Source: Tetrahymena thermophila SB210
Lineage: Eukaryota; Ciliophora; Oligohymenophorea; Hymenostomatida; Tetrahymenidae
Direction: 5' to 3'
Assembly: GCF_000189635.1 (NCBI RefSeq)
Contig: NW_002475984.1
Location: forward strand, 23,957-87,956
DNA: 64,000 bases
Positions 3,001 through 43,776 of this stretch are shown here, one piece after another (the first letter of the stretch is position 1; every line of letters begins with the position of its first letter). The position numbers and the translations under genes are program-made. The notes under the pieces are model-generated. The model ran no database searches, was not told the origin of the DNA, and saw only the letters and a list, made by a program, of their open reading frames with translations.

Positions 3001-4345
3001 TGTTTTTACCTAAGGCTTAGTTTCAAATTTGAGAGATTAATACAATTTGCTAAAGCAGAACCTAAGAATGAAGCACCTTTATCAGTTATTTAATTGGCAC
3101 TTTTTAATTTCCAAGAAAAAATATATATTTAATTAGTTAATTAAAAGGAAAAAGTGAAGAAAAAATAATCAACATTAAGATTAATAAAATATGAAGAAAA
3201 TAAAAAAGCAGGCACAATAAAATGAAAAACAAAAAAGAGCTTTATTATTCTAAATTAGTTTTTTTAATCAAAAATATCACAATCCAAAATAAATAAGTTA
3301 TTTTTACTCAAGGTAAAGTGACAAATTTGTGAGATTAATGCAATTTGCTAAACCAGAACTTAAGTTTGATACATCTTCATCATTAATTTAAATGTCACTT
3401 TTTTAATATTGAAGAAAAAAAATAATTAATTAGTTAATTAGAAAGAAAAATGAAGAAATAATATGAAATAATAAGATTAATTAATTAATAATTAAAGCCA
3501 AAGTTAAAAATAAAATGATGAATTAAATTAACAAAAAAGAATAAAAAAATTAAAGCACAATAAATAGAAAAATAAAAAAGAGCTTTATTGTTTTAAATTA
3601 GTTTTTACAAATTGAAAATATTGCAATCTAAAAATAAATAAACTATTTTTACTGAAGATCAAGTGTTAAATCTGAGAGATTAATACAATTTGATAAAGCA
3701 GAACCTAATTTTGATCTACATTCATGATTGATATAACCGTAACTTTTTAAATATTGAAGAAAAAATTAATGAGTTTATTAGAAGGAAAAAATGAAGAAAA
3801 AATATGAAATAATAATATTAATTTATAATTAGTTAAATTAACAAAGAAAGAAAAGCAAGCAAGCCCAATAAATAGTAAAAAGAAAATAAATCAAACAAAT
3901 TGAAAGAGCTTTCATATTTTAAATTTATTTTTATAATTAAAAATATTACAGTTCAAAATAAATAAATAAACTGTTTTTATCAAGCGTAAGTGTTAATATC
4001 AAAAAATTAAGAAAAAATATCAAATAATAAAAAATGAACAATAAATACTTATAAATTGAAATTAAAATAGTTTTTAAATTTTTGTTTTAATAAAATCAAT
4101 AAATAATGATGACAATTTCTATTTTAAAATTATTTTTTTAAAATAAATTGAAAGTGAATTTTTAAAAATATATTAATAATATTTATAAATTAAATATACG
4201 TGAGATCAATATGGAGAACCTAATGAGACTAAAGCGAAGAGTTTAAAAACTTTTTTTATTAATAAAGATAAATTTAAAGGATATTAATAAAAAAATTAAT
4301 AATTACTTCTTCCAATTCTTAGTAATATTTACTCTATTATATCAT
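1..4345 (-). CDS. LRR protein, paralogue D (partial, runs off the left edge)
   Basis: This is the 5' part of a ribonuclease-inhibitor-like leucine-rich-repeat gene, read with TAA/TAG as Gln. Exon 1 is 4345-4307 (13 codons, MIQQSKYYQELEE) and exon 2 is 4249-4200 (FLNSSLQSHQVLHIDL). At least 12 LRR exons follow, with cores near 3674, 3330, 3031, 2680, 2417, 2085, 1742, 1400, 1071, 711, 372 and 31. Each exon begins with one base of a split codon and ends with two, then GTAAAAA. The repeat pattern is xNxIGDxGAxxLGSALANC followed by xNLSNLTLxL. These copies are more diverged from each other than those in the two rightmost array genes, suggesting an older array. The 3' end lies outside the window. 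Such LRR proteins are usually intracellular binding scaffolds; the ligand is unknown. Confidence 0.8.
3955..4045 (-). pseudogene. Fossil LRR exon
   Basis: Between exon 2 and the first intact LRR exon, the unit's donor-side sequence (plus strand, ctgtttttatcaagcgtaag) is followed directly by sequence resembling the far side of the exon. Most of the 90-nt exon is missing. The same remnant sits at the same place in the other three array genes (near 10,115, 15,965 and 24,975), so the deletion predates their duplication. Confidence 0.5.
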
Positions 4346-4839
4346 TTATTTTATTTTATTTTTTTCAAAAATATTGAATAGCAATTTATATGGAATTTAA
4401 TTAATTATTAATAGATAAAAAGTACAAAAAAATATAATTAATAAGTATCAAATTTGAGTTTATAAAAGAGATATCATAAAAAAAATTAATTAATTATTTA
4501 AACTTAATATTTGTATTTGAAACATATATTTAAAAATATAGTAGGAATTAGAGATGGTTAGTTAGTCTTATTTGAAAAAAAATCTAGTAATTATTCTAAA
4601 ACTATTGTCAATACTCCTACAGGGGAGGCTTGTTAATTTTTTGTCTAAATTCTCTTGGGGTAATATGCAAATTTACTAACAAAAATATGATTTATAAATA
4701 AAAAAAAAATAAAATTTATCTCTCTATATTTTAGATAAAAAGAATTTTTTCAAAATAAATATTATATAACAAAACTTATAATATTCAGCTATTCAAACAT
4801 TTAATATTTATCAATATTTTTTGCGCTACTTTTTTATTA
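4346..4839. other. Intergenic joint between LRR genes D and C
   Basis: This spans the sequence between the start of gene D and the stop of gene C. It holds the conserved upstream element and a slightly GC-richer patch at about 4,615-4,670 with no counterpart in the other joints. I see no further gene. Confidence 0.6.
4541..4557 (-). promoter_or_regulatory. Conserved upstream element of the LRR genes (copy D)
   Basis: The 17-bp plus-strand sequence gtaggaattagagatgg lies 196 bp upstream of the start codon of LRR gene D. It recurs almost unchanged at 10,701, 16,539 and 25,578, each time about 200-225 bp upstream of the paralogous start codon. The surrounding AT-rich DNA is much less alike for the older pairs. 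That position suggests a promoter or transcription-start element; function is inferred from position only. Confidence 0.4.
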
Positions 4840-7800
4840 TCAATAATTATTTTTAAAGACAACTAATCTTTTTTATTTAAGACACTTTCTTATTACTTTG
4901 AATTTTTATGATTCATTCATTAAGTTACCTCTTCTATATATATTTGTGTATATTTTAATAAATATTAAATAAAAAAAACTTTTAAATTAAAAATTATTTC
5001 TTAAATTAATAAATAAATTAAAAAACATTATTGGAATAAAAAAGAAAGAAAAATAAATCAAATAAAACCTATCAAATAAATTGAATGATATTTATTCTTA
5101 TAAATTTCATTTTATAATTAAAAATATAGCAATCCAAAACAAAAAAACTATTTTTACTTAAATTAAAGTGTCAACTTTGAGAGATTAATGCAATTTGCTA
5201 AACCAGAACCTAAGTCTGATGCACCTTTGTCACCAATTTAATTTTAACTTTTTAAATATTGAAGAAAAAATAAATAATTAATTTGTTAATGAGAAGGAAA
5301 AAATAAAGAAATAATATGAAATAATAAATCAGATTAATTAATTAATTAATAATAAAAGCAAAAGTTGAAAATAAAATAAATTATGAATGATTAAATTAAA
5401 AAAGAAAGAAGAAAAAAAAGCAGGCACAATAAAAAGTAATAGAAAAAAGAGCTTTATTCTTTTAAATTAGTTTTTATAATTAAAAATATCTCAATGCAAA
5501 ACAAGTAATTGGTTTTTACATAAGGAGAAGTTTCAAATTTGAGAGATTAATACAATTTGCTAAACCAGAACCTAAGCCTGATGCACCCATCGAACCAATT
5601 TTATTGCTACTTTTAAATTTTGAAGAAAAAATATATAATTAATTTGTAAATTAGAAAAAAAAAATAAAGAAATAATATGAAATAATAAGATTAATTCATT
5701 AATAATAAAAGCAAAAGTTTAAAATAAAATTATGAATGATTTAAATCAAAAAAGAAAGTAGAAAAAAAAGCAGGCACAAAAAAAGTAATAGAAAAAAGAG
5801 CTTTATTCTTTTAAATTAGTTTTTATAATTAAAAATATGTCAATGCAAAACAAGTAAACTGTTTTTACGTAAGGGAAAGATTTAAATTTGAGAGATTAAT
5901 GCACTTTGCTAAACCAGAACCTAAGTCTGATGCACCTTTGTCACCAATTTAATTTTAACTTTTTAAATATTGAAGAAAAAATATATAATTAAATAGTTAA
6001 TTAGAAGGAAAAAATGAAGAAAAAATATGAAATAATAACATTAATTAATAAAAAAAAAAAATTGATAATAAAATGATGAGATCTATTAACAAAGAAAGAA
6101 GAAAAAAAAAAAGCAAGCACAATAAAAAGAAAAGAAAATAGAGCTTTATTCTTTTAAATTAGTTTTTATAATTAAAAATATCTCAATGCAAAACAAGTAA
6201 ACTGTTTTTACTAAAGTTCAAGTGTCAAATTTGAGAGATTAATGCAATTTGCTAAACCAGAACCTAAGTCTGATGCACCTTTGTCACCAATTTTATTGCC
6301 TCTTTTAAATGTTGAGGAAAAAATTAATAATTAATCAGATAATTAGAAGGAAAAAATGAAGAAATAATATGAAATAATAAATAAGATTAATTAATTAATA
6401 ATAAAAGCAAAAGTTAAAAATAAAACTATGAGTTAAATAAACAAAGAAAGAAGAAAAAAAGCAAGCACAATTTAAAGAAAAGAAAAATGAGCTTTATTGT
6501 TTTAAATTAGTTTTTATAATTCAAAATATCTCAATGCAAAACAAGTAAACTGTTTTTACTCAAGTAAAAGTGTCAAATTTGAGAGATTAATGCAATTTTC
6601 TAAACCAGAACCTAAACCTGATACACCTTCATCACCAATTTAATTTTCACTTTTTAAATATTGAAGAAAAAATATATAATTTATAAGTCAATTTTAAAGA
6701 AAAAAATGAAGAAAAAATATGAAATAATAATAAAAGTAAAAGTTGAAAATAAAATTATGAGTTAAATTAATAAAGAAAGAAAAAAAAAGTAAGCACAATA
6801 AAAAGAAAAGAAAAAAAGAGCTTTTTTGTTTTAATTTAGTTTTTATAATTAAAAATATCTCAATGCAAAACAAGTAAACTGTTTTTACCTAAGGTGAAGT
6901 GTCAAATTTGAGAGATTAATGTAATTTGATAAACCAGAACCTAAAACACCTACATCACTAATTTAATTCTTACTTTTTAAATTATTGAAGAAAAAATGTA
7001 AATTTAATCAGAAAATTAGAAGGAAAAAATGAAAAAAAAATATGAAATAATAAGATTAATTAATTAATAATAAAAGCAAAAGTTGATAATAAAACGATGA
7101 ATTGAATAAACAAAGAAAAAAGAAAAAAAAAGCAAGCACAATAAAAAGAAAAGAAAAAAGAGCTTTTTTGTTTTAAATTAGTTTATAATTAAAAATATCG
7201 CAATCCAAAACAAATAAACTGTTTTTACCCAATTTGAAGTGTCAAATTTGAGAGATTAATGCAATTTACTAAACCCGAACCTAAACCTGATACACCTTAA
7301 TCATCAATTTAATTGTAACTTTTTAAATATTAAAGAAAAAATTTATAATTAAATAGTTAATTAGAAGGCAAAAATGAAGAAATAATAATATCAAATAATA
7401 AGATTAGAAGAAAAAAAAAAGCACAATAAAAAGAAATGAAAAAAGAGCTTTATTCTTTTAAATTAGCTTTTATAATTAAAAATATCACAATCCAAAACAA
7501 ATAAACTGTTTTTACCTAAGGTAAAGTGTCAAATTTGAGAGATTAATGCAATTTGCTAAACCAGAACCTAAGCCTGATGCACCCATCGAACCAATTTTAT
7601 TGCCACTTTTAAATATTGAAGAAAAAATATATAATTAATCAGATAATTAGAAGGAAAAAAATGAATAAAAAATATCAAATAATAAGATTAATTAATAATA
7701 AAAGAATAAGTTGATAATAAAATGATGAGTTAAATTAATAAAGAAAGAAGAAGAAAAAAGTAAGCCCAATAAAAAGAAAAGAAAAAAGAGTTTTTTGTTT

Positions 7801-10500
7801 TAAATTAGTTTTTAAATTCAAAATATCTCAATGCAAAACAAGTAAACTGTTTATACCTAAGGACAAGTGTCAAATTTGAGAGATTAATGCAATTTGCTAA
7901 ACCAGAACCTAAACCTGATACACCTACATCATCAATTTAATTGAAACTTTTTAAATATTGAAGAAAAAATATAATTAAATAACGAATTAGAAGGAAAAAA
8001 AAAGAAAAAATATTAAATAATAAGATTAATTAATTAATAATAAAAGCAAAAGTTTATAATAAAATGATGAATTAAATTAACAAAGAAAGAAGAAAAAAAA
8101 AAAGCAAGTAAAAAAAGAAATGAAAATAGAGCTTTTTTATTTTAAATTAGTTTTTATAATTAAATATCATAATCCAAAACAAATAAGCTGTTTTTACCTA
8201 ATATCAAGTGTCAAAATTGAGAGATTAATGCAATTTACTAAATCAGAACCTAAGCCTGATGCACCCATTGCACCAATTTAATTTTCACTTTTTAAATATT
8301 GAATAAAAAATATTTAATTAAAAAAATGATGAATTAAATTAACAAAGAAAGAAGAAGAAAAAAAGCAAGTACAATAAAAAGAAAAGAAAATAGAGCTTTA
8401 TTGTTTTAAATTAGTTTTTATAATTAAAAATATCTCAATAAAAAACAAGTAAACTGTTGTTACTCAAGGAAAAGTGTTAAATTTGAGAGATTAATGCAAT
8501 TTGCTAAACCAGAACCTAAGCCTGATACACCTTCATCACCAATTTTATTGCCACTTTTAAATATTGAAGAAAAAATATATAACTAATCAGATAATTAGAA
8601 GGAAAAAATGAATAAAAAAAAATATGAAATAATAAGATTAATTTATAATATAAGAAAAAGTTGATAATAAAATGATGAGTTAAATTAATAAAGAAAGAAG
8701 AAAAAAAAGTAAGCACAATAAAAAGAAAAGAAAAAAAGAGCTTTTTTGTTTTAATTTAGTTTTTATAATTAAAAATATCTCAATGCAAAACAAGTAAACT
8801 GTTTTTACCTAAGGTGAAGTGTCAAATTTGAGAGATTAATGCAATTTGCTAAACCAGAACCTAAACCTGATACACCCATTGCACCAATTTAATTGTAGCT
8901 TTTTAAACATTGAAGAAAAAATATATAATTAATCAGAAAATTAGAAGGAAATAAATGAATAAAAAATATGAAATTATAAGATTAATTAAGAATAAAAAAT
9001 AAAGTTGATAATAAAATGATGAATTAAATTAACAAAGAAAGAAGAAAAAAAAAGCAAGCACAATAAAAGAAAAAGAAAAATGAGCTTTATTCATTTAAAT
9101 TAGTTTTTATAATTAAAAATATAGCAATGCAAAAAATTAATTGTTTTTACCAAAGTTTAAGTGTTAAATTTGAGAGATTAATGCAATTTGCTAAACCAGA
9201 ACCTAAGCCTGATACACCCATTGCACCAATTTAATAATTGTAGCTTTTTAAACATTGAAGAAAAAATATATAATTAATCAGAAAATTAGAAGGAAAAAAA
9301 TGAATAAAAAATATCAAATAATAAGATTAATTTATAATAAAAGTAAAATTTTATAATAAAATGATGAGTCAAATTAATAAAGAAAAAAGAAAAAAAAAAA
9401 GTAACCACAATAAAAAGAAAAGAAAAAAGAGCATTTTTGTTTTAAATTAGTTTTTATAATTAAAAATATCACAATCCAAAACAAATAAACTGTTTTTACT
9501 CTAGATTAAGTGTCAAATTTGAGAGATTAATGCAATTTGCTAAACCAGAACCTAAACCTGATACACCTTCATCACCAATTTTATTGCCACTTTTAAATAT
9601 TGAAGAAAAAATTAATAATTAATCAGATAATTAGAAGGAAAAAATGAAGAAAAAATATGAACTAATAAGATTAATTAATAATAAAAGAAAAGTTATATAA
9701 AATGATGAGTTAAATTAACAAAGAAAGAAGAAAAAAAAAAGTAAGCACAATAAAAAGAAAAGATAAAAGAGCTTTATTGTTTTAAATTAATTTTTATAAT
9801 TAAANNNNNNNNNNNNNNNNNNNNNNNNNNNNNNNNNNNNNNNNNNNNNNNNNNNNNNNNNNNNNNNNNNNNNNNNNNNNNNNNNNNNNNNNNNNNNNNN
9901 NNNNCTTTTTAAATATTAGAAGAAAAAAAATATAATTAATCAATTAATTAGAAGGAAAAAATGAAGAAAAAATAAGATTAATAAATAATTAATTAAATTA
10001 ACAACAAAACAAAAAAAAGCAAGCGAGAACAATAAAAAGAAAATAAATCGAATAAATTAAAAGACCTTTAATTTTTAAATAAAATTTTTTTATTGAAATA
10101 TTACAATTAAACTATTTTTATCAAGTGTAAGTGTTAATAGCAAAAAATGAAGAAAAAATATCAAATAATAAAAAGATGAATAATAAATAATTAAAAATTA
10201 AAATGAAAATTTAGTTAAAATAGTTAAAAAATTTTTGTTTTAATAAAATCAATGAATAATAAAGAGAATTTGTATTAGAAAAATTAATTTTTTAAATAAA
10301 TTCAAAGTCAAATATATAAATAATTTCTTTATAATATTTATAAATTAAATATACGTCATATCAATATGGAGAACCTAATGAGATTAAAGTGTAGAATTTA
10401 AAAACTTTTTTTGTTAATAATAATAAATTTAAAGGTTATTAATAAAAAAATAAATAATTACTTCTTCTAGTTTGTAATATTCTTTAATCTATTATATCAT
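4840..10500 (-). CDS. LRR protein, paralogue C
   Basis: This is a complete gene in outline, interrupted by an assembly gap. Exon 1 is 10500-10462 (MIQQIKEYYKLEE). Exon 2 is 10404-10355 (FLNSTLQSHQVLHIDM). LRR exon cores lie near 9521, 9172, 8830, 8484, 8219, 7876, 7537, 7249, 6909, 6581, 6233, 5889, 5541 and 5176, and at least one more lies in the gap. The last exon is 4930-4840: it starts in LRR phase, carries KRLVVFKNNY and stops at TGA. Each LRR exon encodes about 30 residues of the type NQIGDEGASGLGSGLANC then NLSNLTL, so the product is an alpha/beta solenoid of at least 15 repeats. No signal peptide or membrane segment is evident, so a cytoplasmic or nuclear scaffold is likely. Spacing of units is about 340 bp. 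Confidence 0.8.
9805..9904. other. Assembly gap (100 N)
   Basis: A run of exactly 100 N falls inside LRR gene C, between the first LRR unit and the next. The round length suggests a placeholder of unknown true size. Near-identical tandem units are the likely reason assembly failed, so the LRR count of gene C is a minimum. Confidence 0.95.
10090..10165 (-). pseudogene. Fossil LRR exon in gene C
   Basis: The remnant has the donor-side motif (tatcaagtgtaagtgttaat on plus) fused to downstream unit sequence, with the LRR core missing. It corresponds to the remnants near 3,970, 15,965 and 24,975. Confidence 0.5.
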
Positions 10501-11611
10501 TTATTTTTTTTTTCAAAAATATTGAATTGCAATTTATGTAATTTAATTAATTACAAATGTATAAAAAGAACAAACAAAATATAATAATTATCAAATATTA
10601 ATCAATAAATTTGCTTTTACCAAGAAATATCATAAAAAATTAATTTAACATTAATTTTTTAATCTTAATATTTGTTTTTAAACCTATACTTAAAAATGTA
10701 GTAGAAATTAGAGATGGGGAGTTAGTCATATTTGAAAAAATTCTAGTAATTAATTAATTAATTAATATTCTTAAAAATTATAAAATAATATTTTTTATTA
10801 GATTGTTCTGTTTTATCCAAGTAATGATGGGAATATTTCTAAAGCTGTTCCATGATTTGAAATTTAGTTGATTGTAGGTTCTAAATCAGCTGAATTTCAA
10901 TAATTATTAAAATAAAAATATTTTATATGTAGTTTCCTTCTTCTTTATGAAAGAATATATACATCAGATAGAAATGATTAATTATTTATTATCATTGATT
11001 AAAAAACAAAAAATATTTTTTTTAATCTTTTTTCTGATATATTCTGATTAAATCTAAAAAAAAAAAATATATATATATAGCAAGATGCCATTCATAAATT
11101 CCATCTTTTGTATCTCACTTGTTATGAAATAGATTTTTTATTTATCCAAAAAAATTAAAATAAAAAGTAAAATTTAATTTATCCCTGAGATTTTATTTAA
11201 ATCATGGTATCTAATTAATTAATCGTGAAAAATAAAAAAAGGATAGAAATATGATTGATGAATAATATTTAAGATTAAAATATAACTGGTATATAAAAGC
11301 TTAGCATTTATATAATTTAATAAGATTTAATATAACACTAAAATTTTCAAATTATTTGATCGTTTTTGGAGAAACAAGGTCAAATTACTTTAGAGGATTT
11401 AATTTATTTAAGTAAATTTAATTTTTAAATTTTTTTATTTTTTATAAATAATTTATTTACTTACAAAAATGAATGATATTTATAAAAAAAAATTAATAAT
11501 AAAATCTATTTATCTATCTATTTATATTTTAGGTTAAAAACACTTTTACAAAATATTAAATAATAAAATATATAATATTATACAAACATTTTATATTTAT
11601 TCATCATTTTA
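10501..11611. other. Intergenic joint between LRR genes C and B
   Basis: This is AT-rich sequence between the gene C start and the gene B stop. It contains the conserved upstream element (10,701-10,717), a block at about 10,780-11,140 that is absent from the otherwise matching B/A joint, and from about 11,145 a block duplicated at 16,585. Short minus-strand readings here (for example MEQLQKYSHHYLDK near 10,845) look protein-like but have no splice context I can support. Confidence 0.55.
10701..10717 (-). promoter_or_regulatory. Conserved upstream element of the LRR genes (copy C)
   Basis: gtagaaattagagatgg is one substitution away from the other three copies. It lies 201 bp upstream of the gene C start codon. 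Confidence 0.4.
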
Positions 11612-11900
11612 TCACCAGTTAATTGTTTACATAATGAAATTAAAGACAACTAATCTTTTTGATTTAAGATACTTGTTTAATACTTTGATTTTTTATGATT
11701 CATTCATTAAGCTTTAACTTTTATAATTAATTTGTATAAGTTTTAAATAAATTTCAAAATAGAATAAACTTTTAAATTTAAAAATTATTCTTGAAATTAA
11801 TAAATAAAATAATATTAGTGGAATAAAAAAGATAAAAAAATAAATAAAAGCTATCAAATAAATTCAAAGAGCTTTATTGTTTTTGATTAGTTTTTTGAAT
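11145..11900. repeat. Segmental duplication, copy 1 (pairs with 16,585-17,330)
   Basis: About 750 bp covering the last exon of LRR gene B, the following intergenic DNA and part of the last intron is nearly identical to 16,585-17,330, the matching 3' end of LRR gene A. It includes non-coding stretches such as ttatccctgagattttattt. High identity in non-coding DNA points to a recent duplication of a whole gene block. Confidence 0.85.
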
Positions 11901-14900
11901 TTAAAATATCACAATCCAAAACAAATAAACTGTTTTTACCCAAAGAAAACTGTCAAATTTGAGAGATTAATGCAATTTGCTAAACCAGAACCTAAGCCTG
12001 ATGCACCCATTGCATCAATTTAATTGTCACTTTTTAAATATTGAAAAAATATATCATTAAATAGTTAATTAGAAGGAAAAAATGAAGAAAAAATATGAAA
12101 TAATAAGATCAATTAATTAATCATAAAAGCAAAAATTGAAAATAAATGATGAGTTAAATTCACAAAAAAACAACAACAAAAAGCAAGTACAATAAAAAGA
12201 AAAGAAAAATTAGCTTTATTGTTTTTAATTAGTTTTTTGAATTTAAAATATCACAATCCAAAAAAATAAACTTTTTTTACTCTAGACTAAGTGTCAAATT
12301 TGAGAGATTAATGCAATTTGCAAAAGCAGAACCTATGCCTGATGCACCTTCATCACCAATTTAATTGTAACTTTTTAAATATTTAAGAAAAAATATGTAT
12401 CAAATAGTTGATTAGAAGGAAAAAATGAAGAAAAAATATGAAATAATAAGATTAATTAATTAATAACAATAGCAAAAGTTGAAAATAAATGATGAGTTAA
12501 ATTAACAAATAAAAAACAAAAAAAAGCAAGCACAATAAAAAGAAAAAAAAAATGAGATTTATTGTTTTTAATTAGTTTTTTGAATTTAAAATATCGCAAT
12601 CCAAAAAAATAAACTTTTTTTACTATAGATTAAGTGTCAAATTTAAGAGATTAATGCAATTTGCTAAAGCAGAACCTAAGCCTGATGCACCTATTGCACC
12701 AATTTTATTGTAACTTTTTAAATATTGAAGAAAAAATATATCATTAAATAGTTAAATAGAAGGAAAAATGAAGAAAAAATATGAAATAATAAGATTAATT
12801 AATTAATAATAAAAGCAAAAGTTGAAAATAAATGATGAGCTAAATTATCAAAGAAAGAACAAAAAAAAGCAAGCATAATAAAAAGAAAAATGAGCTTTAT
12901 TGTTTTTAATTAGTTTTTTGAATTTAAAATATCGCAATCCAAAAAAATAAACTTTTTTTACTATAGATTAAGTGTCAAATTTGAGAGATTAATGCAATTT
13001 GCTAAAGCAGAACCTAAGCCTGATGCACCCATTGCACCAATTTTATTGTAACTTTTTAAATATTGAAGAAAAAATATATCATTAAATAGTTAAATAGAAG
13101 GAAAAATGAAGAAAAAATATGAAATAATAAATTAATTAATTAATAATAAAAGCAAAAGTTGAAAATAAATGATGAGCTAAATTATCAAATAAAGAACAAA
13201 AAAAAGCAAGCACAATAAAAAGAAAAAGAAAAATGAGCTTTATTGTTTTTAATTAGTTTTTTGAATTTAAAATATCACAATCCAAAACAAATAAACTCTT
13301 TTTACCCAATGTTAAGTGTCAAATTTGAGAGATTTATGCAATTTGCTAAAGCAGAACCTATGCCTGATGCACCTATTTCACCAATTTAATTGCCACTTTT
13401 TAAATATTGAAGAAAAAATATATCATTAAATAGTTAATTAGAAGGAAAAAATGAAGAAAAAATATGAAATAATAAGATTAATTAATTAATATAATAATAG
13501 CAAAAGTTGAAAATAAATGATGAGCTAAATGATCAAAGAAAGAACAAAAAAAAAGCAAGCATAATAAAAAGTAAAAGAAAAATGAGCTTTATTGTTTTTA
13601 ATTAGTTTTTTGAATTTAAAATATCACAATCCAAAAAAATAAACTTTTTTTACTCTAGATTAAGTGTCAAATTTGAGAGATTAATGCGATTTGCAAAAGC
13701 AGAACATAAGCCTGATGCACCTTCATCACCAATTTAATTACCACTTTTTAAATATTGAAGAAAAAATATATCAATAAATAGTTAATTAGAAGGAAAAAAT
13801 GAAGAAAAAATATGAAATAATAAGATCAATTAATTAATAATAATAATAGCAAAAGTTGAAAATAAATGATGAGATAAATTAACAAAAAAACAACAACAAA
13901 AAAGGAAGTACAATAAAAAGAAAAAGAAAAATGAGCTTTATTGTTTTTAATTAGATGCTTAGAAGGCAGAAAAAAATGGCGTGATAGGTTGTTTTTTACC
14001 CCTATTGCCCTAAAATGCCCCGATTGTAAATTCTCTAATAATAAGATTAATAAATTAATAATAATAGCAAAAATTGAAAATAAATGATGAGCTAAATTAT
14101 CAAAGAAAGAACAAAAAAAAGCAAGCACAATAAAAAGAAAAAGAAAATTGAGCTTTATTGTTTTTAATTAGTTTTTATTATTAAAAATATCACAATCCAA
14201 AACAAAAAAACTGTTTTTACTCTAGATTAACTGTCAAATTTGAGAGATTTATGCAATTTGCTAAACCAGAACCTACGCCTGATGCACCTTTATCACCAAT
14301 TTTATTTGCACTTTTTAAATATTGAAGAAAAAATATATCATTAAATAGTTAATTAGAAGGAAAAAATGAAGAAAAAATATGAAATAATAAGATTAATTAA
14401 TTAATAATAATAGCAAAAGTTTAAAATAAATGATGAGCTAAATTAACAAAGAAAGAACAAAAAAAAGCAAGCACAATAAAAAGAAAAAGAAAATGAGATT
14501 TATTGTTTTTAATTAGTTTTTTGAATTTAAAATATCACAATCCAAAACAAATAAACTGTTTTTACCCAATGTTAAGTGACAAATTTGAGAGATTAATGCA
14601 ATTTGCTAAAGCAGAACCTATGCCTAATGCACCCATTTCACCAATTTAATTGCCACTTTTTAAATATTGAAGAAAAAATATATCAATAAATAGTTAATTA
14701 GAAGGAAAAAATGAAGAAAAAATATGAAATAATAAGATTAATTAATTCATAATAATAATGGCAAAAGTTGAAAATAAATGATGAGCTAAATTATCAAAGA
14801 AAGAACAAAAAAAAGCAAGCACAATAAAAAGTAAAAGAAAAATGAGCTTAATTGTTTTTAATTAGTTTTTTGAATTTAAAATATCACAATCCAAAACAAA

Positions 14901-16326
14901 GAACTGTTTTTACTATAGATTAAGTGTCAAATTTGAGAGATTAATGCAATTTGCAAAAGCAGAACATAAGCCTGATGCACCCATTTCACCAATTTAATTG
15001 TAACTTTTTAAATATTGAAGAAAAAATATATAATTAAATAGTTAATTAGGAGGAAAAAATGAAGAAAAAATATGAAATAATAAGATTAATTAATTAATAA
15101 TAATAATAGCAAAAGTTGAAAATAAATGATGAGCTAAATTATCAAAGAAAGAACAAAAAAAAGCAAGCACAATAAAAAGAAAAAGAAAAATGAGCTTTAT
15201 TGTTTTTAATTAGTTTTTATTATTAAAAATATCACAATCCAAAACAAAAAAACTGTTTTTACTCTAGATTAACTGTCAAATTTGAGAGATTTATGCAATT
15301 TGCTAAAGCAAAACCTAAGCATGATGCACCTTCATCACCAATTAATTTCTGAGTGTATAAATACATATATTTATGTACGAGTATATTATTATTATCACCA
15401 TTTTAATTGCGACTTTTTAAATATTGAAAAAAAAAAAATATGATTAAATAGAGTAAGTTGCCATACAAACTTACAAAAAGCGAGATTTATAAACCAGTTT
15501 TTACATTTTAAAAAATTAAAATTTTAAATATTTTATATGAATTTTTTTTAATTTAGGTTTTCAAAATTTATTTTTTTCAAAAAAAATTACAGATAAGAAT
15601 ATGCGATATATATTATTTAAAATTTTACGTTTTTTAAATTTAAAGCTTTCTAAAAATTAAAAAATAAAGCTGCTTTAAGCTTATTTAGCTTTATTTATTA
15701 TGTTATTAAGATTTATTAAATTTCGCCTTTTATAAATTAAATAGGCATTTAACTCTAGTTAATTAGGAGGAAAAAATGAAGAAAAAATATGATAAGATTA
15801 GTTAATAATTAATAAATTTAACAAAGAATGAATAAATAAGAAATAATAATATAAAGAAAAAGGAAAACAAATCAAATCAAATAAATTAAAATATCTTTAA
15901 TGTTTTAAATTAACTTTTATAATTAAAAATATTACAATGCTAAAAAAATAAACTACTTTTATTTAGTGTAAGTTTTAATAGCAAAAAACGAAGAAAAAAT
16001 ATCAAATAATAAATAATTAAAAATTGGAAAGAAAATTAAGTTAAAATAGTTAAAAAATTTAATTTTTGTAAAAATCAATCAACAAATAATGATGATAATT
16101 TCTTTAATTAAATAATTTGAAAATTAAATGTACAAAAAATATTAATAATAATAAAAGTAATTTTTTTAATTAATTATACTTCAGATCAATATGGAGAACC
16201 TAATGAGATAAAAGAGAAGAGCTTAAAAACTTTTTTTTATTAATTAATATAAATTTAAAGGATATTAATAAAAAAATTAATAATTACTTCTTCTAAATTG
16301 TTATATTTTTTAATCTATTATATCAT
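11612..16326 (-). CDS. LRR protein, paralogue B
   Basis: Exon 1 is 16326-16288 (MIQQIKKYNNLEE) and exon 2 is 16229-16180 (FLSSSLLSHQVLHIDL). Ten LRR exons follow, with cores near 15285, 14937, 14590, 14243, 13677, 13327, 12981, 12650, 12301 and 11963. The last exon is 11717-11612 and encodes KRLVVFNFIMQTINW followed by TGA. All LRR exons are symmetric (one base in, two bases out), so the array keeps frame whatever its copy number. Two blemishes are visible. The first LRR exon (near 15,285) carries a 48-bp insertion close to its acceptor. The unit expected near 13,96x has lost its exon and holds an unrelated 82-bp sequence. Introns and exons are nearly identical to those of gene A, indicating recent duplication. 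Confidence 0.8.
13955..14036. other. Unrelated GC-richer 82-bp segment replacing an LRR exon
   Basis: The repeat unit is normal up to gtttttaattag and resumes at ataataagattaat. In between, the LRR exon and about 250 bp of unit are gone, and an unrelated segment with runs such as taaaatgccccgattg is present. I found no clear target duplication. It could be filler captured during break repair or an element fragment. Confidence 0.5.
15346..15393 (+). mobile_element. 48-bp relic resembling the SINE-like element's 3' end, in an LRR exon of gene B
   Basis: Inside the first LRR exon of gene B, 48 bp separate two near copies of the target atcaccaattta (15,334-15,345 and 15,394-15,405, each with mismatches). 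The insert ends in tgtacgagtat plus a short (ATT) run. This resembles the 3' end of the 407-bp element at 20,902 (tgtgcgagtat plus a (GTAT) run). It is best explained as a 5'-truncated copy of the same family at the same site of a paralogous exon. Confidence 0.5.
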
Positions 16327-16570
16327 TTATTTATTTTTTCAAAAATATTGATTAGCAATTTATGAAATTTAATTAATTATAAATGGATAAAAAGAACAAA
16401 TAAATACAATAATTAATTATCAAATATTAATTTATATATTTGGTTTTATGAAGAGATAGATATCACAGAAAAATTAATTTAACATTCACTATTATAAATT
16501 TAATATTTGTATAAAACATACACTTAAAAATATATATAGTAGGAATTAGAGATGGCCAGTTATTTATTTA
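15470..16570. repeat. Segmental duplication, copy 1 (pairs with 24,500-25,620)
   Basis: About 1.1 kb covering exons 1-2, the fossil unit and the upstream region of LRR gene B is nearly identical to the matching part of gene A. Only small indels differ, including length changes in (taat)n and (ttta)n runs. Genes A and B are therefore recent duplicates. Confidence 0.85.
16539..16555 (-). promoter_or_regulatory. Conserved upstream element of the LRR genes (copy B)
   Basis: gtaggaattagagatgg lies 213 bp upstream of the gene B start codon. Here the flanks are also duplicated, so on its own this copy adds little beyond the A copy. Confidence 0.35.
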
Positions 16571-16584
16571 TTTATTTAGTCATA

Positions 16585-17330
16585 ACCAAAAAAATTAAAA
16601 TAAAAAGTAAAATTTAATTTATCCCTGAGATTTTATTTAAATCATGGTATCTAATTAATTAATCATGATAAATAAAAAAAGGATAGAAATATGATTGATG
16701 AATAATATTTAAGATTAAAATATAACTGACATATAAAAGCTTAGCATTTATATAATTTAATAAGATAAAATATAACACTATTAAATTATTTGATCATTTT
16801 TGGAGAAACAAGGTCAAATTACTTTAGAGGATTTAATTTATTTAAGTAAATTTAATTTTTAAATTTTTTTATTTTTTATAAATTATTTATTTACTTACAA
16901 AAATGAATGATATTTATAAAAAAAAAATAAATTATAAAATCTATTTATCTATCTATTTATATTTTAGGTTAAAAACACTTTTACAAAATATTAAATAATA
17001 AAATATTTAATATTATACAAACATTTTATATTTATTCATCATTTTATCACTAGTTAATTGTTTTTATAATGAAATTAAAGACAACTAATCTTTTTAATTT
17101 AAGATACTTGTTTAATACTTTGATTTTTTATGATTCATTCATTAAGCTTTAACTTTTATAATAAATTTGTGTAAGTTTTAAATAAATTTCAAAATTGAAT
17201 AAAATTTTAAATTTAAAAATTATTCTTGAAATTAATAAATAAAATAATATTAGCGGAATAAAAAAGATAAAAAAAATAAATCAAATAAAAGCTATCAAAT
17301 AAATTCAAAGAGATTTATTGTTTTTTGAAT
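16585..17330. repeat. Segmental duplication, copy 2 (pairs with 11,145-11,900)
   Basis: This contains the last exon of LRR gene A and the A/B intergenic joint, nearly identical to the 3' end of gene B and its flank. Confidence 0.85.
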
Positions 17331-20300
17331 TTAAAATATCACAATCCAAAACAAATAAACTGTTTTTACCCAATCCGAAGTGTCAAATTTGAGAGATTAA
17401 TGCAATTTGCTAAAGCAGAGCCTATGCCTGATGCACCCATTTCACCAATTTCATTGCCACTTTTTAAATATTGAAGAAAAAATATATCATTAAATAGTTA
17501 ATTAGAAAGAAAAAATGAAGAAAAAAATGAAATAATAAGATTAATTAATTAATAATAAAAGCAAAAATTGAAAATAAATGATGAGCTAAATTCACAAAAA
17601 AACAACAACAAAAAGCAAGTAAAATAAAAAGAAAAAAAAATTTAGCTTTATTGTTTTTAATTAGTTTTTTGAATTTAAAATATCACAATCCAAAAAAATA
17701 AACTTTTTTTACTCTAGATTAAGTTTCAAATTTGAGAGATTAATGCAATTTGCAAAAGCAGAACATAAGCCTGATGCACCTTCATCACCAATTTAATTTT
17801 CACTTTTTAAATATTGAAGAAAAAATATGTATCAAATAGTTGATTAGAAGGAAAAAATGAAGAAAAAATATGAAATAATAAGATTAATTAATTAATTAAT
17901 AATAATAGCAAAAGTTGAAAATAAATGATAAGTTAAATTGTCAAATATAAAACAAAAAAAAGCAAGCACAATAAAAAGAAAAAGAAAAATGAGATTTATT
18001 GTTTTTAATTAGTTTTTTTGAATTTAAAATATCACAATCCAAAAAAATAAACTTTTTTTACTCTAGATTAAGTGTCAAATTTGAGAGATTAATGCAATTT
18101 GCAAAAGCAGAACATAAGCCTGATGCACCTTCATCACCAATTTTATTGTAACTTATTAAATATTGAAGAAAAAATGTAGCATTAAATAGTTAATTAGAAG
18201 GAAAAAATGAAGAAAAAATATGAAATAATAAGATTAATTAATTAATTATATATAATAATAGCAAAAATTGAAAATAAATGATGAGCTAAATTATCAAAGA
18301 AAGAACAAAAAAAAACAAGCACAATAAAAAGAAAAAGAAAAATGAGATTTATTGTTTTTAATTAGTTTTTTGAATTTAAAATATCACAATCCAAAACAAA
18401 TAAACTGTTTTTACTTAATGTCAAGTCTCAAATTTGAGAGATTTATGCAATTTGCTAAAGCAGAACCTAAGCCTGATGCACCTTCATCACCAATTTAATT
18501 GTCCCTTTTTATATATTGAAGAAATAATATATATTAAATAGTTGATTTGAAGGAAAAAATGAAGAAAAAATATGAAATAATAAGATTAATTAATTAATAA
18601 TAAAAAAAATAAATGATGATCTAAATTATCAAAGAAAAAACAAAAAAAGCAAGCACAATAAAAAGAAAAAGAAAAATGAGATTTATTGTTTTTAATTAGT
18701 TTTTTTGAATTTAAAATATCACAATCCAAAACAAATAAACCGTTTTTACATAAAGTTAACTGTCAAATCTGAGAGATTAATGCAATTTACAAAAGCAGAA
18801 CATAAGGCTGATGCACCTTCATCACCAATTTAATTGCCACTTTTTAAATATTGAAGAAAAAATGTAGCATTAAATAGTTAATTAGAAGGAAAAAATGAAG
18901 AAAAAATATGAAATAATAAGATTAATTAATTAATTAATAATAATAGCAAAAATTGAAAATAAATGATGAGCTAAATTATCAAAGAAAGAACAAAAAAAAA
19001 CAAGCACAATAAAAAGAAAAAGAAAAATGAGATTTATTGTTTTTAATTAGTTTTTTGAATTTAAAATATCACAATACAAAACAAATAAACTATTTTTACC
19101 TAATGTCAAGTGTCAAATTTGAGAGATTTATGCAATTTGCTAAAGCAGAACCTAAGCCTGATGCACCTTCATGACCAATTTAATTGTCACTTTTTATATA
19201 TTGAAGAAATAATTTATATTAAATAGTTGGTTTGAAGGAAAAAATGAAGAAAAAATATGAAATAATAAGATTAATTAATTAATTAATAATAAAAGCAAAA
19301 ATTGAAAATAAATGATGAGCTAAATTAACAAAGAAAGAACAAAAAAAAGCAAGCACAATAAAAAGAAAAATGAGCTTTATTGTTTTTAATTTGTTTTTTG
19401 AATTTAAAATATCACAATCCAAAACAAATAAACTGTTTTTACACGATCTTAAGTCTCAAATCCGAGAGATTAATGCAATTTACAAAAGCAGAACATAAGG
19501 CTGATGCACCTTCATAACCAATTTAATTGCCACTTTTTAAATATTGAAGAAAAAATGTAGCATTAAATAGTTAAATAGAAGGAAAAAATGAAGTAAAAAT
19601 ATGAAATAATAAGATTAATTAATTAATAATAATAGCAAAAGTTGAAAATAAATGATGAGCTAAATTATCAAAGAATGAACAAAAAAAATCAAGCACAATA
19701 AAAAGAAAAAGAAAAATGAGCTTTATTGTTTTTAATTAGTTTTTTGAATTTAAAATATTGCAATCAAAAAAAATAAACTTTTTTTACTCTAGATTAAGTG
19801 TCAAATTTGAGAGATTTATGCAATTTTTTAAACCAGAACCTACGCCTGATGCACCTTTATCACCAATTTAATTGTGACTTTTTAAATATTGAAGAAAAAA
19901 TATATAATTAAATAGTTAATTAAGAGGAAAAAATGAAGAAAAAATATGAAATAATAAGATTAATTAATTAATAATAATAGCAAAAATTGAAAATAAATGA
20001 TGAGCTAAATTATCAAAGAAAGAACAAAAAAAAGCAAGCACAATAAAAAGAAAAAGAAAAATGAGCTTTATTGTTTTTAATTAGTTTTTTGAATTTAAAA
20101 TATCACAATCCAAAACAAATAAACTGTTTTTACTAGATTTTAAGTGTCAAATTTGAGAGATTAATGCAATTTGCTAAAGCAGAACCTAAGCCTTATGCAC
20201 CTTCATCACCAATTTAATTGTAACTTTTTATATATTGAAGAAATAATTTATATTAAATAGTTAATTAGAAAGAAAAAATATGAAATAATAAGATTAATTA

Positions 20301-23300
20301 ATTAATAATAATAGCAAAAGTTGAAAATAAATGATGAGATAAATTAACAAAAAAACAACAAAAAAAAACGAAGTACAATAAATAGAAAAAGAAAAATGAG
20401 CTTTATTGTTTTTAATTAGTTTTTTGAATTTAAAATATCACAATCCAAAACAAATAAACTGTTTTTACCCGATGTTAAGTCTCAAATCCGAGAGATTAAT
20501 GCAATTTACAAAAGCAGAACATAAGGCTGATGCACCTTCATAACCAATTTAATTGCCACTTTTTAAATATTGAAGAAAAAATGTAGCATTAAATAGTTAA
20601 TTAGAAGGAAAAAATGAAGAAAAAATATGAAATAATAAAACAGATTAATTAATTAATAATACTAGCAAAAATTGAAAATAAATGATGAGCTAAATTATCA
20701 AAGAAAGAACAAAAAAAAGCAAGCACAATAAAAAGAAAAACAAAAATGAGCTTTATTGTTTTTAATTAGTTTTTTGAATTTAAAATATCACAATCCAAAA
20801 CAAATAAACTATTTTTACATAATTTCAAGTGTCAAATTTGAGAGATTTATGCAATTTGCTAAAGCAGAACCTAAGCCTGATGCACCTTCATCACCAATTT
20901 AAGAAGGGCTAAGCGGCTCGAGTGGGCGAGTCGGAGGGTCTTAGCAGTGATATCGGGGGTTCGAATCCTATACCGCCCCCTTTATTTCGAAAAATTCCAT
21001 GTAAAAATGTGAATGTTACCAGCGGTCTCCTTGGTAGGAGGGAAGGGCCAAATCTGATAGGTGGTAAAGAGGAGGCCCCATTCTGAACAGAAGATCTGGA
21101 ATACAAATGGGAAGCGAGCATAATGCGTAGTCAAATCATGGAAGATTAGTAGAAATGCCATTAGGGTGTAGGTGACCCTTCCCTTCTAGTATATTACCCA
21201 CAATTATATATAAATAAATTGGTATACGTATAATAATAATGTATAAGTAATTATATATAGGGCCCCTATCCCGAGTGCATGTCACCATGTGCGAGTATGT
21301 ATGTATGTATGTATCACCAATTTAATTGTCCCTTTTTATATATTGAAGAAATAATATATATTAAATTGTTGATTTGAAGGAAAAAAAGAAGAAAAAATAT
21401 GAAATAATAAGATTAATTAATTAATAATAATAGTAAAAGTTGAAAATAAATGATGAGCTAAATTAACAAAGAAAGAAAGAAAAAAAGCAAGCACAATAAA
21501 AAGAAAAATGAGCTTTATTGTTTTTAATTAGTTTTTTGAATTTAAAATATCGCAATCCAAAAAAATAAACTTTTTTTACTCTAGATTAAGTGTCAAATTT
21601 GAGAGATTAATGCAATTTGCAAAAGCAGAACCTAAGCCTGATGCACCTTCATCACCAATATAATTGTAACTTTTTATATATTGAAGAAATAATTTATATT
21701 AAATAGTTGATTTGAAGGAAAAATGAAGAAAAAATATGAAATAATAAGATTAATTAATTAATTAATAATAATAGCAAAAATTGAAAATAATTGGTGAGCT
21801 AAATTATCAAAGAAAGAACAAAAAAAATCAAGCACAATAAAAAGAAAAAGAAAAATGAGCTTTATTGTTTTTAATTAGTTTTTTGAATTTAAAATATCAC
21901 AATCCAAAACAAATAAACTGTTTTTACCCGATTTTAAGTGTCAAATTTGAGAGATTAATGCAATTTGCTAAAGCAGAACCTAAGCCTGATGCACCGATTG
22001 CACCAATTTAATTTGAACTTTTTAAATATTGAAGAAAAAATATATAATTAAATAGTTAATTAAGAGGAAAAAATGAAGAAAAAATATGAAATTATAAATA
22101 AGACTAATTAATTAATAATAATAGAAAAAGTTAAAAATAAATGATGAGCTAAATTATCAAAGAAAGAACAAAAAAAAGCAAGCACAATAAAAAGAAAAAG
22201 AAAAATGAGCTTTATTGTTTTTAATTAGTTTTTTGAATTTAAAATATTGCAATCAAAAAAAATAAACTTTTTTTACTCTAGATTAAGTGTCAAATTTGAG
22301 AGATTAATGCAATTTGCAAAAGCAGAACCTAAGCCTGATGCACCTTCATCACCAATTTAATTGTAACTTTTTATATATTGAAGAAATAATTTATATTAAA
22401 TAGTTGATTTGAAGGAAAAAATGAAGAAAAAATATGAAATAATAAGATTAATTAATTAATTAATTAATAATAATAGCAAAAATTGAAAATAATTGGTGAG
22501 CTAAATTATCAAAGAAAGAACAAAAAAAAGCAAGCACAATAAAAGGAAAAAGAAAAATGAGCTTTATTGTTTTTAATTAGTTTTTTGAATTTAAAATATC
22601 ACAATCCAAAACAAATAAACTATTTTTACCTAATGCCAAGTGTCAAATTTGAGAGATTAATGCAATTTGCAAAAGCAGAACCTAAGCCTGATGCACCTTC
22701 ATCACCAATTTAATTGTAACTTTTTATATATTGAAGAAATAATTTATATTAAATAGTTGATTTGAAGGAAAAAATGAAGAAAAAATATGAAATAATAAGA
22801 TTAATTAATTAATTAATTAATAATAATAGCAAAAATTGAAAATAATTGGTGAGCTAAATTATCAAAGAAAGAACAAAAAAAAGCAAGCACAATAAAAGGA
22901 AAAAGAAAAATGAGCTTTATTGTTTTTAATTAGTTTTTTGAATTTAAAATATCACAATCCAAAACAAATAAACTATTTTTACCTAATGCCAAGTGTCAAA
23001 TTTGAGAGATTTATGCAATTTGCTAAAGCAGAACCTAAGCCTGATGCACCTTCATCACCAATTTAATTGCCACTTTTTATATATTGAAGAAATAATATAT
23101 ATTAAATAGTTGATTTGAAGGAAAAAATGAAGAAAAAATATGAAATAATAAGATTAATTAATTAATTAATTAATAATAATAGCAAAAATTGAAAATAATT
23201 GGTGAGCTAAATTATCAAAGAAAGAACAAAAAAAAGCAAGCACAATAAAAAGAAAAACAAAAATGAGCTTTATTGTTTTTAATTAGTTTTTTGAATTTAA

Positions 23301-25353
23301 AATATCACAATCCAATACAAATAAACTATTTTTACCTAATGTCAAGTGTCAAATTTGAGAGATTTATGCAATTTGCTAAAGCAGAACCTAAGCCTGATGC
23401 ACCTTCATGACCAATTTAATTGCCACTTTTTATATATTGAAGAAATAATATATATTAAATAGTTGATTTGAAGGAAAAAATGAAGAAAAAATATGAAATA
23501 ATAAGATTAATTAATTAATAATAAAAGCAAAAATTGAAAATAAATGATGAGCTAAATTAACAAAGAAAGAACAAAAAAAGCAAGCACAATAAAAAGAAAA
23601 AAAAAAGAAAAATGAGCTTTATTGTTTTTAATTAGTTTTTGAATTTAAAATATCACAATCCAAAACAAATAAACTATTTTTACCTAATTTCAAGTGTCAA
23701 ATTTGAGAGATTTATGCAATTTGCTAAAGCAGAACCTAAGCCTGATGCACCTTCATCACCAATTTAATTGTCCCTTTTTATATATTGAAGAAATAATATA
23801 TATTAAATTGTTGATTTGAAGGAAAAAATGAAGAAAAATATGAAATAATAATATTAATTAATTAATTAATAATAATAGCAAAAGTTGAAAATAAATGATG
23901 AGCTAAATTATCAAAGAAAGAACAAAAAAAGTAAGCATAATAAAAAGAAAAAGAAAAATGAGATTTATTGTTTTTAATTAGTTTTTTGAATTTAAAATAT
24001 CACAATCCAAAACAAATAAACAGTTTTTACCTAAGCTAAAGTGTCAAATTTGAGAGATTTATGCAATTTTTTAAACCAGAACCTACGCCTGATGCACCTT
24101 TATCACCAATTTAATTGCGACTTTTTAAATATTGAAGAAAAAATATATAATTAAATAGTTAATTAAGAGGAAAAAATGAAGAAAAAATATGAAATAATAA
24201 ATAAGACTAATTAATTAATAATAATGGAAAAAGTTAAAAATAAATGATGAGCTAAATTATCAAAGAAAGAACAAAAAAAAGCAAGCACAATAAAAAGAAA
24301 AAGAAAAATGAGCTTTATTTTTTTTAATTAGTTTTTTGAATTTAAAATCAAAACAAAAAAACTGTTTTTACTCTAGATTAACTGTCAAATTTGAGAGATT
24401 TATGCAATTTGCTAAAGCAGAACCTAAGCAAGATGCACCTTCATCACAAATTATTTTAGGCTTTTCAAAAATTGAGACAACTGGCTGTATACCAATTAAA
24501 CTAAAAAATAAATAAATAAAATTTGTTAAAAAAATTATTTTTTTTTTATTTTTTTTTTTAATTATAGGTTTTCAAAATTTATTTTTTTCAAAAAAATTAC
24601 AGATAAGAATATACGATATATATTATTTAAAATTTTACGTTTTTTAAATTTAAAGCTTTCTAAAAATTAAAAAATAAAGCTGCTTTAAGCTGATTTAGCT
24701 TTATTTATTATGTTATTAAGATATATTAAATTTCGCCTTTTATAAATTAAATAGGCATTTAACTCTAGTTAATTAGGAGGAAAAAATGAAGAAAAAATAT
24801 GATAAGATTAGTTAATAATTAATAAATTTAACAAAGAATGAGAAAATAAGAAATAATAATAAAAAGAAAAAGGAAAACAAATCAAATCAAATCAAATAAA
24901 TTAAAAGATCTTTAATGTTTTAAATTAAATTTTATAATTAAAAATACTAGAATTCAAAAAAAATAAACTGCTTTTATTTAGTGTAAGTTTTAATAGCAAA
25001 AAACGAAGAAAAAATATCAAATAGTAAATAATTAAAAATTGGAAAGAAAATTAAGTTAAAATAGTTAAAAAATTTAATTTTTGTAAAATCAATCAACAAA
25101 TAATGATGATAATTTCTTTAATAAAAATTATTTATTTAAATAAATTGAAAATTAAATGTACAAAAAATATTAAAAATAATAAAAGTAATTTTTTTAATTA
25201 ATTATACCTCAGATCAATATGGAGAACCTAATGAGATAAAAGAGAAGAGCTTAAAAACTTTTTTTATTAATTAATATAAATTTAAAGGATGTTAATAAAA
25301 AAATAAATAATTACTTCTTCTAATTTGTTATATTTTTTAATCTATTATATCAT
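17047..25353 (-). CDS. LRR protein, paralogue A (20 LRR exons, one broken by an insertion)
   Basis: Exon 1 is 25353-25315 (MIQQIKKYNKLEE) and exon 2 is 25257-25208 (FLSSSLLSHQVLHIDLR). Twenty LRR exons follow, with cores near 24389, 24051, 23707, 23357, 23004, 22649, 22297, 21946, 21599, 20839, 20488, 20156, 19808, 19466, 19118, 18768, 18436, 18084, 17736 and 17388. The last exon is 17152-17047, with LKLKRLVVFNFIIKTINQ then TGA. A typical exon encodes GNQIGDEGASGLGSALANC followed by INLSNLTL. Spacing is very regular at about 350 bp and units are almost identical, implying recent unequal exchange or conversion. The exon near 20,839 is split by a SINE-like element. Because every LRR exon is symmetric, skipping that exon would keep the frame and cost only one repeat. 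The first LRR exon (24,389) also has an unusual acceptor side that I could not resolve. Function of the product is unknown. Confidence 0.8.
20902..21308 (+). mobile_element. SINE-like retroelement insertion
   Basis: This 407-bp insert is far richer in G+C than anything around it. It is flanked by a perfect 12-bp direct repeat, atcaccaattta, at 20,890-20,901 and 21,309-21,320. About 60-70 bp into it is ggttcgaatcc, a match to the tRNA B box of RNA polymerase III promoters. The preceding gctaagcggctcgagtggg is A-box-like at a plausible distance. The 3' end is a (GTAT)n run. A tRNA-like head, unrelated body, simple-repeat tail and target duplication are the marks of a SINE mobilised by a LINE machinery. 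No protein is encoded. It interrupts an LRR exon of gene A near the acceptor side. Confidence 0.7.
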
Positions 25354-43125: not shown

Positions 43126-43776
43126 ATAATAAGTAAAAAATATCAGATAAATTAATTGTAGATAAGTGCATCTAAAAACAGCTATAATTCTAAAATAAGA
43201 TAAGATATTATGAAAATATTAAAGTAAATTAATTCAAAGATTAGCATTATATTTTTTTGTGTTAGGAAATATAATTCAATAAGAGATTTATCCATTTAGC
43301 AAGAAATATATTTTATAGACCAAGTAAATATTTTTATTCTAAAATATATTTTTTTTATTTTATTCTTACTTTTTGAATGATTTTTTAAAAAATTAAATCA
43401 TTTAAATTGTAATTTTAATTTAAAACTTAAATTAAAACAGAATAATTAAAAATGAAATTTAAAATGGTTTCATATTTTTAATTATGTGCTTTTAATTGCA
43501 ATTTATATAGCTTTTAATTTTTATTTCCTTCTATTAATTTTTAATAAAAATTAATTATTTAAAATATACAAAAATATGATTTTAAATCAATCAATTAATT
43601 TGATTTTTATTTTGGATTTTATGTTTGTTTGTTTGTTTTAGGTGTTAAATAGAGTTTACTTTTAAAAAATAAATGTTGTGTTATATATTTTTTGTTTTTT
43701 GAATTGATTTATTGATATTTTGTTTAAGAAGAAAAGAATAATGTTTTGTTTAATTAATTAAGGGGGGGTTAATCTA
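43126..43776. other. Intergenic region downstream of U3
   Basis: AT-rich sequence lies between the end of the 850-aa gene and the 3' end of the U3 gene. A run of seven G at about 43,762-43,768 sits just beyond the RNA 3' end. No gene seen. Confidence 0.55.

Follow-up and report, generated by a model that had tools for sequence, protein, structure and literature searches.

Whether the GC-rich insert that interrupts an LRR exon of Tetrahymena thermophila SB210 is a mobile element, and by what route it came to lie in a protein-coding exon of an apparently somatic genome, is the question raised by this locus. The window, i.e., the whole stretch of 64,000 nt that was analysed, covers positions 23,957 to 87,956 of contig NW_002475984.1 on the forward strand. 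Arrays of 90-nt, phase-2 LRR exons in Tetrahymena are described in excerpts of Xiong 2019 (PMC6564038), and under the ciliate code the minus strand of the window displays such units, whose 90-nt exons lie between AG and GT and encode NQIGDEGASGLGSALANCINLSNLTL-like repeats. The tandem LRR units of ~345 bp found around the insert bear out a sequence-only reading that had placed it in an exon of a uniform array. Two 300-bp stretches, at 11484-11783 and 16919-17218, are 96% identical between LRR arrays, a sign of recent duplication, and a U3 snoRNA is encoded on the minus strand at 43772-44027 (Rfam RF01848, 120.4 bits). The array and the parts of the insert, a copy of a family named LRR-SINE here, are as follows.

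1..25000, minus strand: LRR arrays, exon/intron units of ~345 bp in tandem, in which 39 exons of exactly 90 nt were recognised, the SINE-made one included
20890..20902, plus strand: left target-site duplication ATCACCAATTTAA, perfect
20903..21312, plus strand: SINE copy (LRR-SINE), length ~410 bp, placed by sequence and coordinate check
20923..20934, plus strand: A-box-like stretch TGGGCGAGTCGG, agreeing with 8 of 9 informative positions of TRGYNNARYNGG as judged by eye
20958..20968, plus strand: B box GGTTCGAATCC, exact, beginning 35 nt after the start of the A-box-like stretch
21273..21298, plus strand: 3' tail core GAGTGCATGTCACCATGTGCGAGTAT, a short stem-loop followed by GAGTAT
21295..21314, plus strand: (GTAT)n tail of the window copy
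21313..21325, plus strand: right target-site duplication ATCACCAATTTAA, its first letters overlapping the GTAT tail

The insert had been described as 407 bp ending at 21308. It is present, and its end lies about 4 bases further on, giving an insert of ~20903-21312 whose first base may fall anywhere from 20901 to 20903 because of an A/AA ambiguity at the 5' junction. The duplication, previously given as 12 bp, is perfect over up to 13 nt, and 12 nt is an equally fair reading since its opening letters can also be assigned to the (GTAT)n tail. The exact B box and the (GTAT)n tail were both recovered at the positions listed, the two box calls being made against the A-box consensus TRGYNNARYNGG and the B-box consensus. 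The GC content of the insert is 42%, compared with 20.9% in the window, and the longest ORF wholly within the element has 58 aa (code 6). With ~410 bp, 37 full-length copies and no ORF beyond this length, LRR-SINE is short, multi-copy and non-coding in the manner of a SINE; the ORF1 zinc finger and the ORF2 endonuclease and RT are absent, and it is not an autonomous REP LINE.

Searching the host's own genome (101 Mb, 445 contigs) with a 413-bp query gave 41 matches, 40 of 54 candidates being scored; within this scored set, 36 matches are full length at 99-100% identity and three are 5'-truncated, and a further full-length copy (L040), split by an N gap, accounts for two match rows. Pattern scans of the genome found 44 heads and 43 tails, with 0 in the reversed controls. 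Both sources were pooled into 50 examined loci (L001-L020, L023-L052), of which 37 carry full-length copies on 34 contigs. These comprise 36 distinct copies, as L012 and L013 have identical flanks, lie 1,447 bp apart and were counted once. The remaining loci are three 5'-truncated copies (L039, L041 and L042, the last at a contig end), five heads without the rest (L043-L047), two tails alone (L050, L051), two diverged heads (L048, L049) and one diverged tail (L052). Pairwise identity among the distinct copies averages 99.3% with a minimum of 98.2%, and private substitutions number 11 in 14,154 bases, indicating a very young family. The earlier view of a recently active SINE-like element is thereby supported, the 37 near-identical copies all having target duplications.

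The copy number also bears on the possibility that the insert stems from an assembly error or from contamination, which is scarcely credible. The insert is not single-copy; its full-length copies are embedded among LRR units in the host's own contigs, and the number of contigs, the native flanks and the matching duplications refute such an origin. No point was found in favour of an assembly error, one copy (L040) spanning an N gap, and a 25-base head pattern had 0 exact matches in the bacterial/archaeal and viral contig collections. It is most likely that the assembly holding these copies is macronuclear, in keeping with the previous suggestion that the element escaped elimination from a somatic genome. 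The assembly size of 101 Mb approaches the 103.0 Mb tabulated for the macronuclear genome in Xiong 2019 (PMC6564038), well below the 157.7 Mb of the micronuclear one, and the RVT_1 profile has a single match in it. Part of the host TERT agrees with the T. thermophila telomerase reverse transcriptase chain of PDB 6d6v in 38 of 39 and 121 of 123 residues; the three mismatched residues are found at stretch ends beside an intron that the translation had included.

The 37 full-length copies share one position of the LRR exon and one orientation, namely antisense and near the start of the 90-nt exon, where the target codons are N-Q-I-G-D. A variant of ..GATGCACCTTCATCACCAATTTAA precedes the element and one of CACCAATTTAATTG.. 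follows it in 37/37, and the upstream LRR anchor was recognised by regex in 36 of them and by eye in L026. Target sites within three mismatches number 1,959 in the 101 Mb of the genome (control 0). All full-length insertions (37/37) thus being found at a single sequence position, LRR-SINE has the habit of a target-specific retroelement, and this single target is the strongest result of the analysis.

Such a distribution might also be left by a dispersed SINE that inserts anywhere and whose non-LRR copies are removed in macronuclear development, those in LRR genes remaining in the soma. Since 95% of putative transposon DNA is eliminated from the T. thermophila MAC according to excerpts of PMC5182062, the somatic sample is indeed a filtered one, and two diverged pieces, L049 and L052, lie off target, the tail L052 being outside LRR sequence altogether. 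Nevertheless, filtering might enrich copies in LRR genes but would hardly confine 37/37 to a single position and a single orientation, and the introns of the LRR units, with almost three times the length of the exons, contain 0 full-length copies. This explanation is considered improbable. The diverged head in L049 (G000:C121:39676-41500, ~759-869) occupies an LRR intron, is reversed relative to the SINE copies and is possibly an older relative without target specificity.

Target duplications accompany 37/37 copies and the 3' tail ranges from 11 to 83 nt, a combination of duplication and variable tail that is proper to SINEs. An exact duplication of 13 nt is the usual case (28 copies), lengths of 12, 14 and 11 nt being found in five, two and one copies, respectively; 36 copies were scored by script, and L015, which the script misread, has 12 nt by eye. 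Target variants peculiar to a locus recur in both copies of its duplication (e.g., L007, L020, L029 and L032), and therefore each locus was duplicated on its own. By these variants, nearly all copies are independent insertions. The 5' junction differs between loci by 0-4 extra A, which together with the variable tail length agrees with target-primed reverse transcription. The 5'-truncated copies L039 and L041 join the same LRR site as the full-length ones, as this process predicts.

Spread of units offers another account, in which a few insertions were followed by the dissemination of SINE-bearing LRR units through unequal crossing-over or gene conversion between arrays. LRR arrays recombine heavily, as excerpts of Xiong 2019 (PMC6564038) report, and the neighbouring L012 and L013 with their identical flanks are such a pair. 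The other loci, however, differ from one another in flanks, in the extra A at the junction and in tail length, and their own target variants are duplicated on both sides of the element, making this account highly improbable and leaving independent, target-directed insertion as the preferred reading.

The 3' end of the element has the form GAGTGCATGTCACCATGTGCGAGTAT(GTAT)n. Tails of the form GAGTG..TGCGAGTAT occur 160 times in the genome (control 0); since at most 43 of them belong to the SINE, roughly 115 are non-SINE tails, many of which lie at the LRR site. In 96 cases (control 0) the LRR letters ACCAATTT come no more than 30 nt after TGCGAGTAT, and a hand count assigned GTAT repeats to 29 of these LRR-joined tails and other repeats, mostly TATTC, to 67. 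Among eleven tails in ten further stretches, the core is immediately preceded by TTAAG(A/T)TGTATTCT in 8 and by a variant of it in 3. Thirteen distinct tail cores, taken from the 100 tails listed first among the 160 and from the further stretches after C17:1497795 was dropped as a likely chance match, each fold into a short stem-loop; its 4-11 pairs occur in two registers that are offset by one position. Compared with mononucleotide shuffles, single cores were equalled by 0 to 77 of 300 shuffles, so that not all of them fold better. One longer stem variant keeps the register of the SINE with a C-G to U-A change. This longer stem (GAGTGTATAAATACATGTATTTATATGCGAGTAT) was seen in L073 near 722, at G000:C5:6532-6565 and at C175:58784-58817; in L073 it is combined with an ATT-repeat tail and a similar LRR site, perhaps representing a separate tail lineage.

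Tt.REP is reportedly the non-LTR retrotransposon of T. thermophila that goes back to Fillingham in 2004. According to excerpts of Xiong 2019 (PMC6564038), it has a conserved 54-bp tail with 169 copies in the MAC that is tied to young LRR genes, to be compared with the 160 cores of the same type, mostly non-SINE, found here. Because count, length and place agree with that description, the shared tails were taken as REP, and the roughly 115 non-SINE tails are very likely Tt.REP tails. LRR-SINE and these other tails have both the tail type and the stem-loop in common, and if the latter are indeed REP tails, LRR-SINE and REP may form a stringent-type SINE/LINE pair.

The assembly itself was searched with the RVT_1 profile, which gave one match, at C134 (L022, G000:C134:179500-189400). 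This LINE has an open ORF2 with the RT match at 853-3606 of L021 on the minus strand, an endonuclease match just below the cut-off and, by eye, a zinc-finger-like ORF1 upstream; a (CTAT)n tail and TTA repeats on its 5' side were likewise recognised by eye. It was rejected as the tail donor, as its 3' end, with (CTAT)n, is without the core; the LINE itself lies in a TTA repeat, not in an LRR exon.

With respect to the head, the B box is identical in four aligned heads and the A-box-like letters are mostly kept in the diverged heads. The proposal of a tRNA-type head is supported by the exact B box and the A-box-like stretch 35 nt upstream, whereas ARAGORN and Rfam are silent on tRNA descent. Neither reported a tRNA in the window SINE or in the heads of L045, L048 and L049, so the scan suggested for the start of the element came back negative; ARAGORN does detect a tRNA-Asn near another copy. 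Searching the genome with the head alone (E up to 10; 40 of 44 candidates scored) brought up nothing but members of the family, and neither the head (z -0.09) nor the whole element (z -0.15) folds better than shuffles.

TTTT is found inside 0 of 37 copies (L040 having its N gap), and the first TTTT stands 6-22 nt past the tail, inside the LRR unit, in 37/37. In the window copy it is the following.

21333..21337, plus strand: candidate Pol III terminator in the LRR unit, the first run of at least four T after the element's 5' end

Because the first TTTT lies there and none inside the copies, the LRR host unit could act as Pol III terminator, but T-rich flanks are common here. The internal absence of TTTT was discarded as proof of Pol III transcription, since the motif occurs in 772 of 2,000 Markov shuffles and in 1,462 of the 2,000 mononucleotide ones, and its absence is not significant.

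Several loci combine the head with other sequence. In L045 (G000:C129:113379-115200) the 107-nt head of the SINE is followed by another body that ends in a TATTC tail; this insertion, too, is at the LRR site of the SINE, and its target copies differ in one letter. This suggests a modular relative, or a head common to REP, and L045 would represent a second family or the remnant of a longer element. In L043, L044, L046 and L047, the head at the LRR target breaks off after 82-107 nt and gives way to other sequence, and these ends are possibly junctions of programmed DNA excision. Both kinds of loci speak for a further explanation, namely that the insert is not a tRNA-type SINE but an internally deleted, SIDE-like derivative of the REP LINE with the REP 5' end as its head and the REP 3' end as its tail. 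The exact B box and the mostly conserved A-box-like stretch argue against it, as do the different start of the C134 LINE (judged by eye) and the middle part of the element, which has no relatives outside the family (40 of 54 candidates scored). We regard this derivation as doubtful while giving it real weight.

Taken together, it is quite probable that the insert is a young, target-specific SINE of T. thermophila that is mobilised by REP via the shared 3' tail and directed antisense into LRR exons. The copies, their site and orientation, the duplications and the shared tail are read directly in the assembly, and the course of events proposed from them is as follows. A Pol III-type RNA would start at the tRNA-like head and would be reverse-transcribed in trans by a REP-type non-LTR retrotransposon, the putative driver, whose machinery would recognise the shared 3' stem-loop/GCGAGTAT tail. 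The coding strand of the LRR would be nicked just after ..AATTAAATTGGTG(AT), within the exon, and cDNA would be primed at this nick from the GTAT tail. A presumably later cut of the second strand, 11-14 nt away, would give rise to the target duplication. From the position of the nick and the priming by the GTAT tail it follows that copies would land antisense in the N-Q-I-G-D codons, near the start of the 90-nt exon. The LRR arrays would constitute a large and tolerant target that is kept in the somatic genome, and we infer that the insertions took place in the germline. At the commonest 5' junction, an antisense AG would let splicing restart an in-frame 90-nt exon and bury the element in a larger intron. 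The position of L052 off LRR sequence and that of L049, reversed in an LRR intron, count against the model, as do the different 3' end and setting of the C134 LINE, the negative ARAGORN and Rfam results and the unremarkable folding of the head and of some tail cores.

The last of these steps rests on the following features of the minus strand.

20819..20908, minus strand: predicted LRR exon using the AG of the antisense SINE 5' end, exactly 90 nt, PSQIGDEGASGLGSALANCINLSNLTLEI
21313..21331, minus strand: initial portion of the original LRR exon, left orphaned behind the normal acceptor AAAAAG

Read along the LRR coding strand, the SINE 5' end is GCTTAG/CCCTTCT and continues into TAAATTGGTGATGAAGG; the putative acceptor AG corresponds, in antisense, to the opening letters of the head (GGCTAAGC). 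In the window copy the frame is kept between this AG and the normal donor. The antisense 5' end may therefore supply an AG at which the 90-nt exon could restart, splicing being predicted. Were this AG used as acceptor, the element would lie inside an enlarged intron, which would fit the REP remnants in introns of functional LRR genes that are mentioned in excerpts of Xiong 2019 (PMC6564038). Among the 36 distinct copies, the predicted exon is exactly 90 nt in 15 (including L033, where the GT at 90 was chosen out of three) and in frame in 3 more (87, 87 and 93 nt). In the other 18 it is out of frame, a further count against the model. The in-frame share of 18/36 exceeds the expected one third (p = 0.028), an excess that weakly favours exon rebuilding as a prediction.

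Comparison with known systems sets the family apart in several respects. SINEs of stringent-type pairs, of which the eel UnaSINE1 is one, are dispersed, whereas LRR-SINE is found at a single coding-exon position. A 3' stem-loop common to LRR-SINE and its probable LINE would be a likeness to such pairs, and several of their LINEs have short tandem-repeat ends, according to excerpts of Ohshima 2013 (PMC3747384); the same source gives CGAG just 3' of the stem for a plant L1 lineage, to be compared with GTGCGAG in LRR-SINE. Tt.REP encodes ORF1 and ORF2 and is mostly excluded from the MAC, whereas LRR-SINE, at ~410 bp, is present there in full length. The tails differ as well, LRR-SINE ending in GTAT and Tt.REP tails mostly having TATTC. 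Moreover, Tt.REP remnants are placed in LRR introns in excerpts of Xiong 2019 (PMC6564038), whereas the junction of LRR-SINE is in an exon.

Sequence specificity itself has precedents. R1, SLACS and CZAR are target-specific non-LTR retrotransposons, as are further elements considered below, and retroelements of this habit have been described mostly for the genes of rRNA, snRNA and spliced leaders. R2, Utopia and the internal-deletion derivatives of R2/R1 resemble LRR-SINE in using one sequence-specific site in a repeated gene (excerpts of PMC3414825, PMC4640811 and PMC5035012). Unlike R2 and Utopia, LRR-SINE has a protein-coding exon array as its target, and it is non-autonomous with a Pol III-type head. 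Among ciliates, the putative SINEs of the Paramecium tetraurelia germline are likewise short, multi-copy and non-coding, with few in MAC-destined DNA, and are defined by copy number and lack of coding potential (excerpts of PMC5405496). In the excerpted text of that source the word tRNA is absent and no LRR targeting was found for these elements. A description of a Tetrahymena SINE was not found among the titles and abstract starts listed from an open-licence library, and the word SINE is absent from the main text of Hamilton 2016 and Xiong 2019.

A young SINE at one position of a protein-coding exon, in the ciliate that has been studied best and in a nucleus from which most transposon DNA is removed, would put such elements in a new setting. 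We tentatively entertain, as a possibility short of an even chance, that a LINE/SINE system has become adapted to an array of protein-coding exons and that a typical insertion restores an in-frame 90-nt exon via its own acceptor. If this is true, insertions become introns at once, the LRR repeats supply target, terminator and somatic shelter, and the so-called REP remnants in LRR introns are exon insertions turned into introns. LRR-SINE offers a concrete mechanism for the published link of REP with fast-evolving LRR genes and a starting point for asking why part of the transposon DNA is spared from elimination, as well as a case, open to testing, in which an insertion may furnish an intron boundary of its own.
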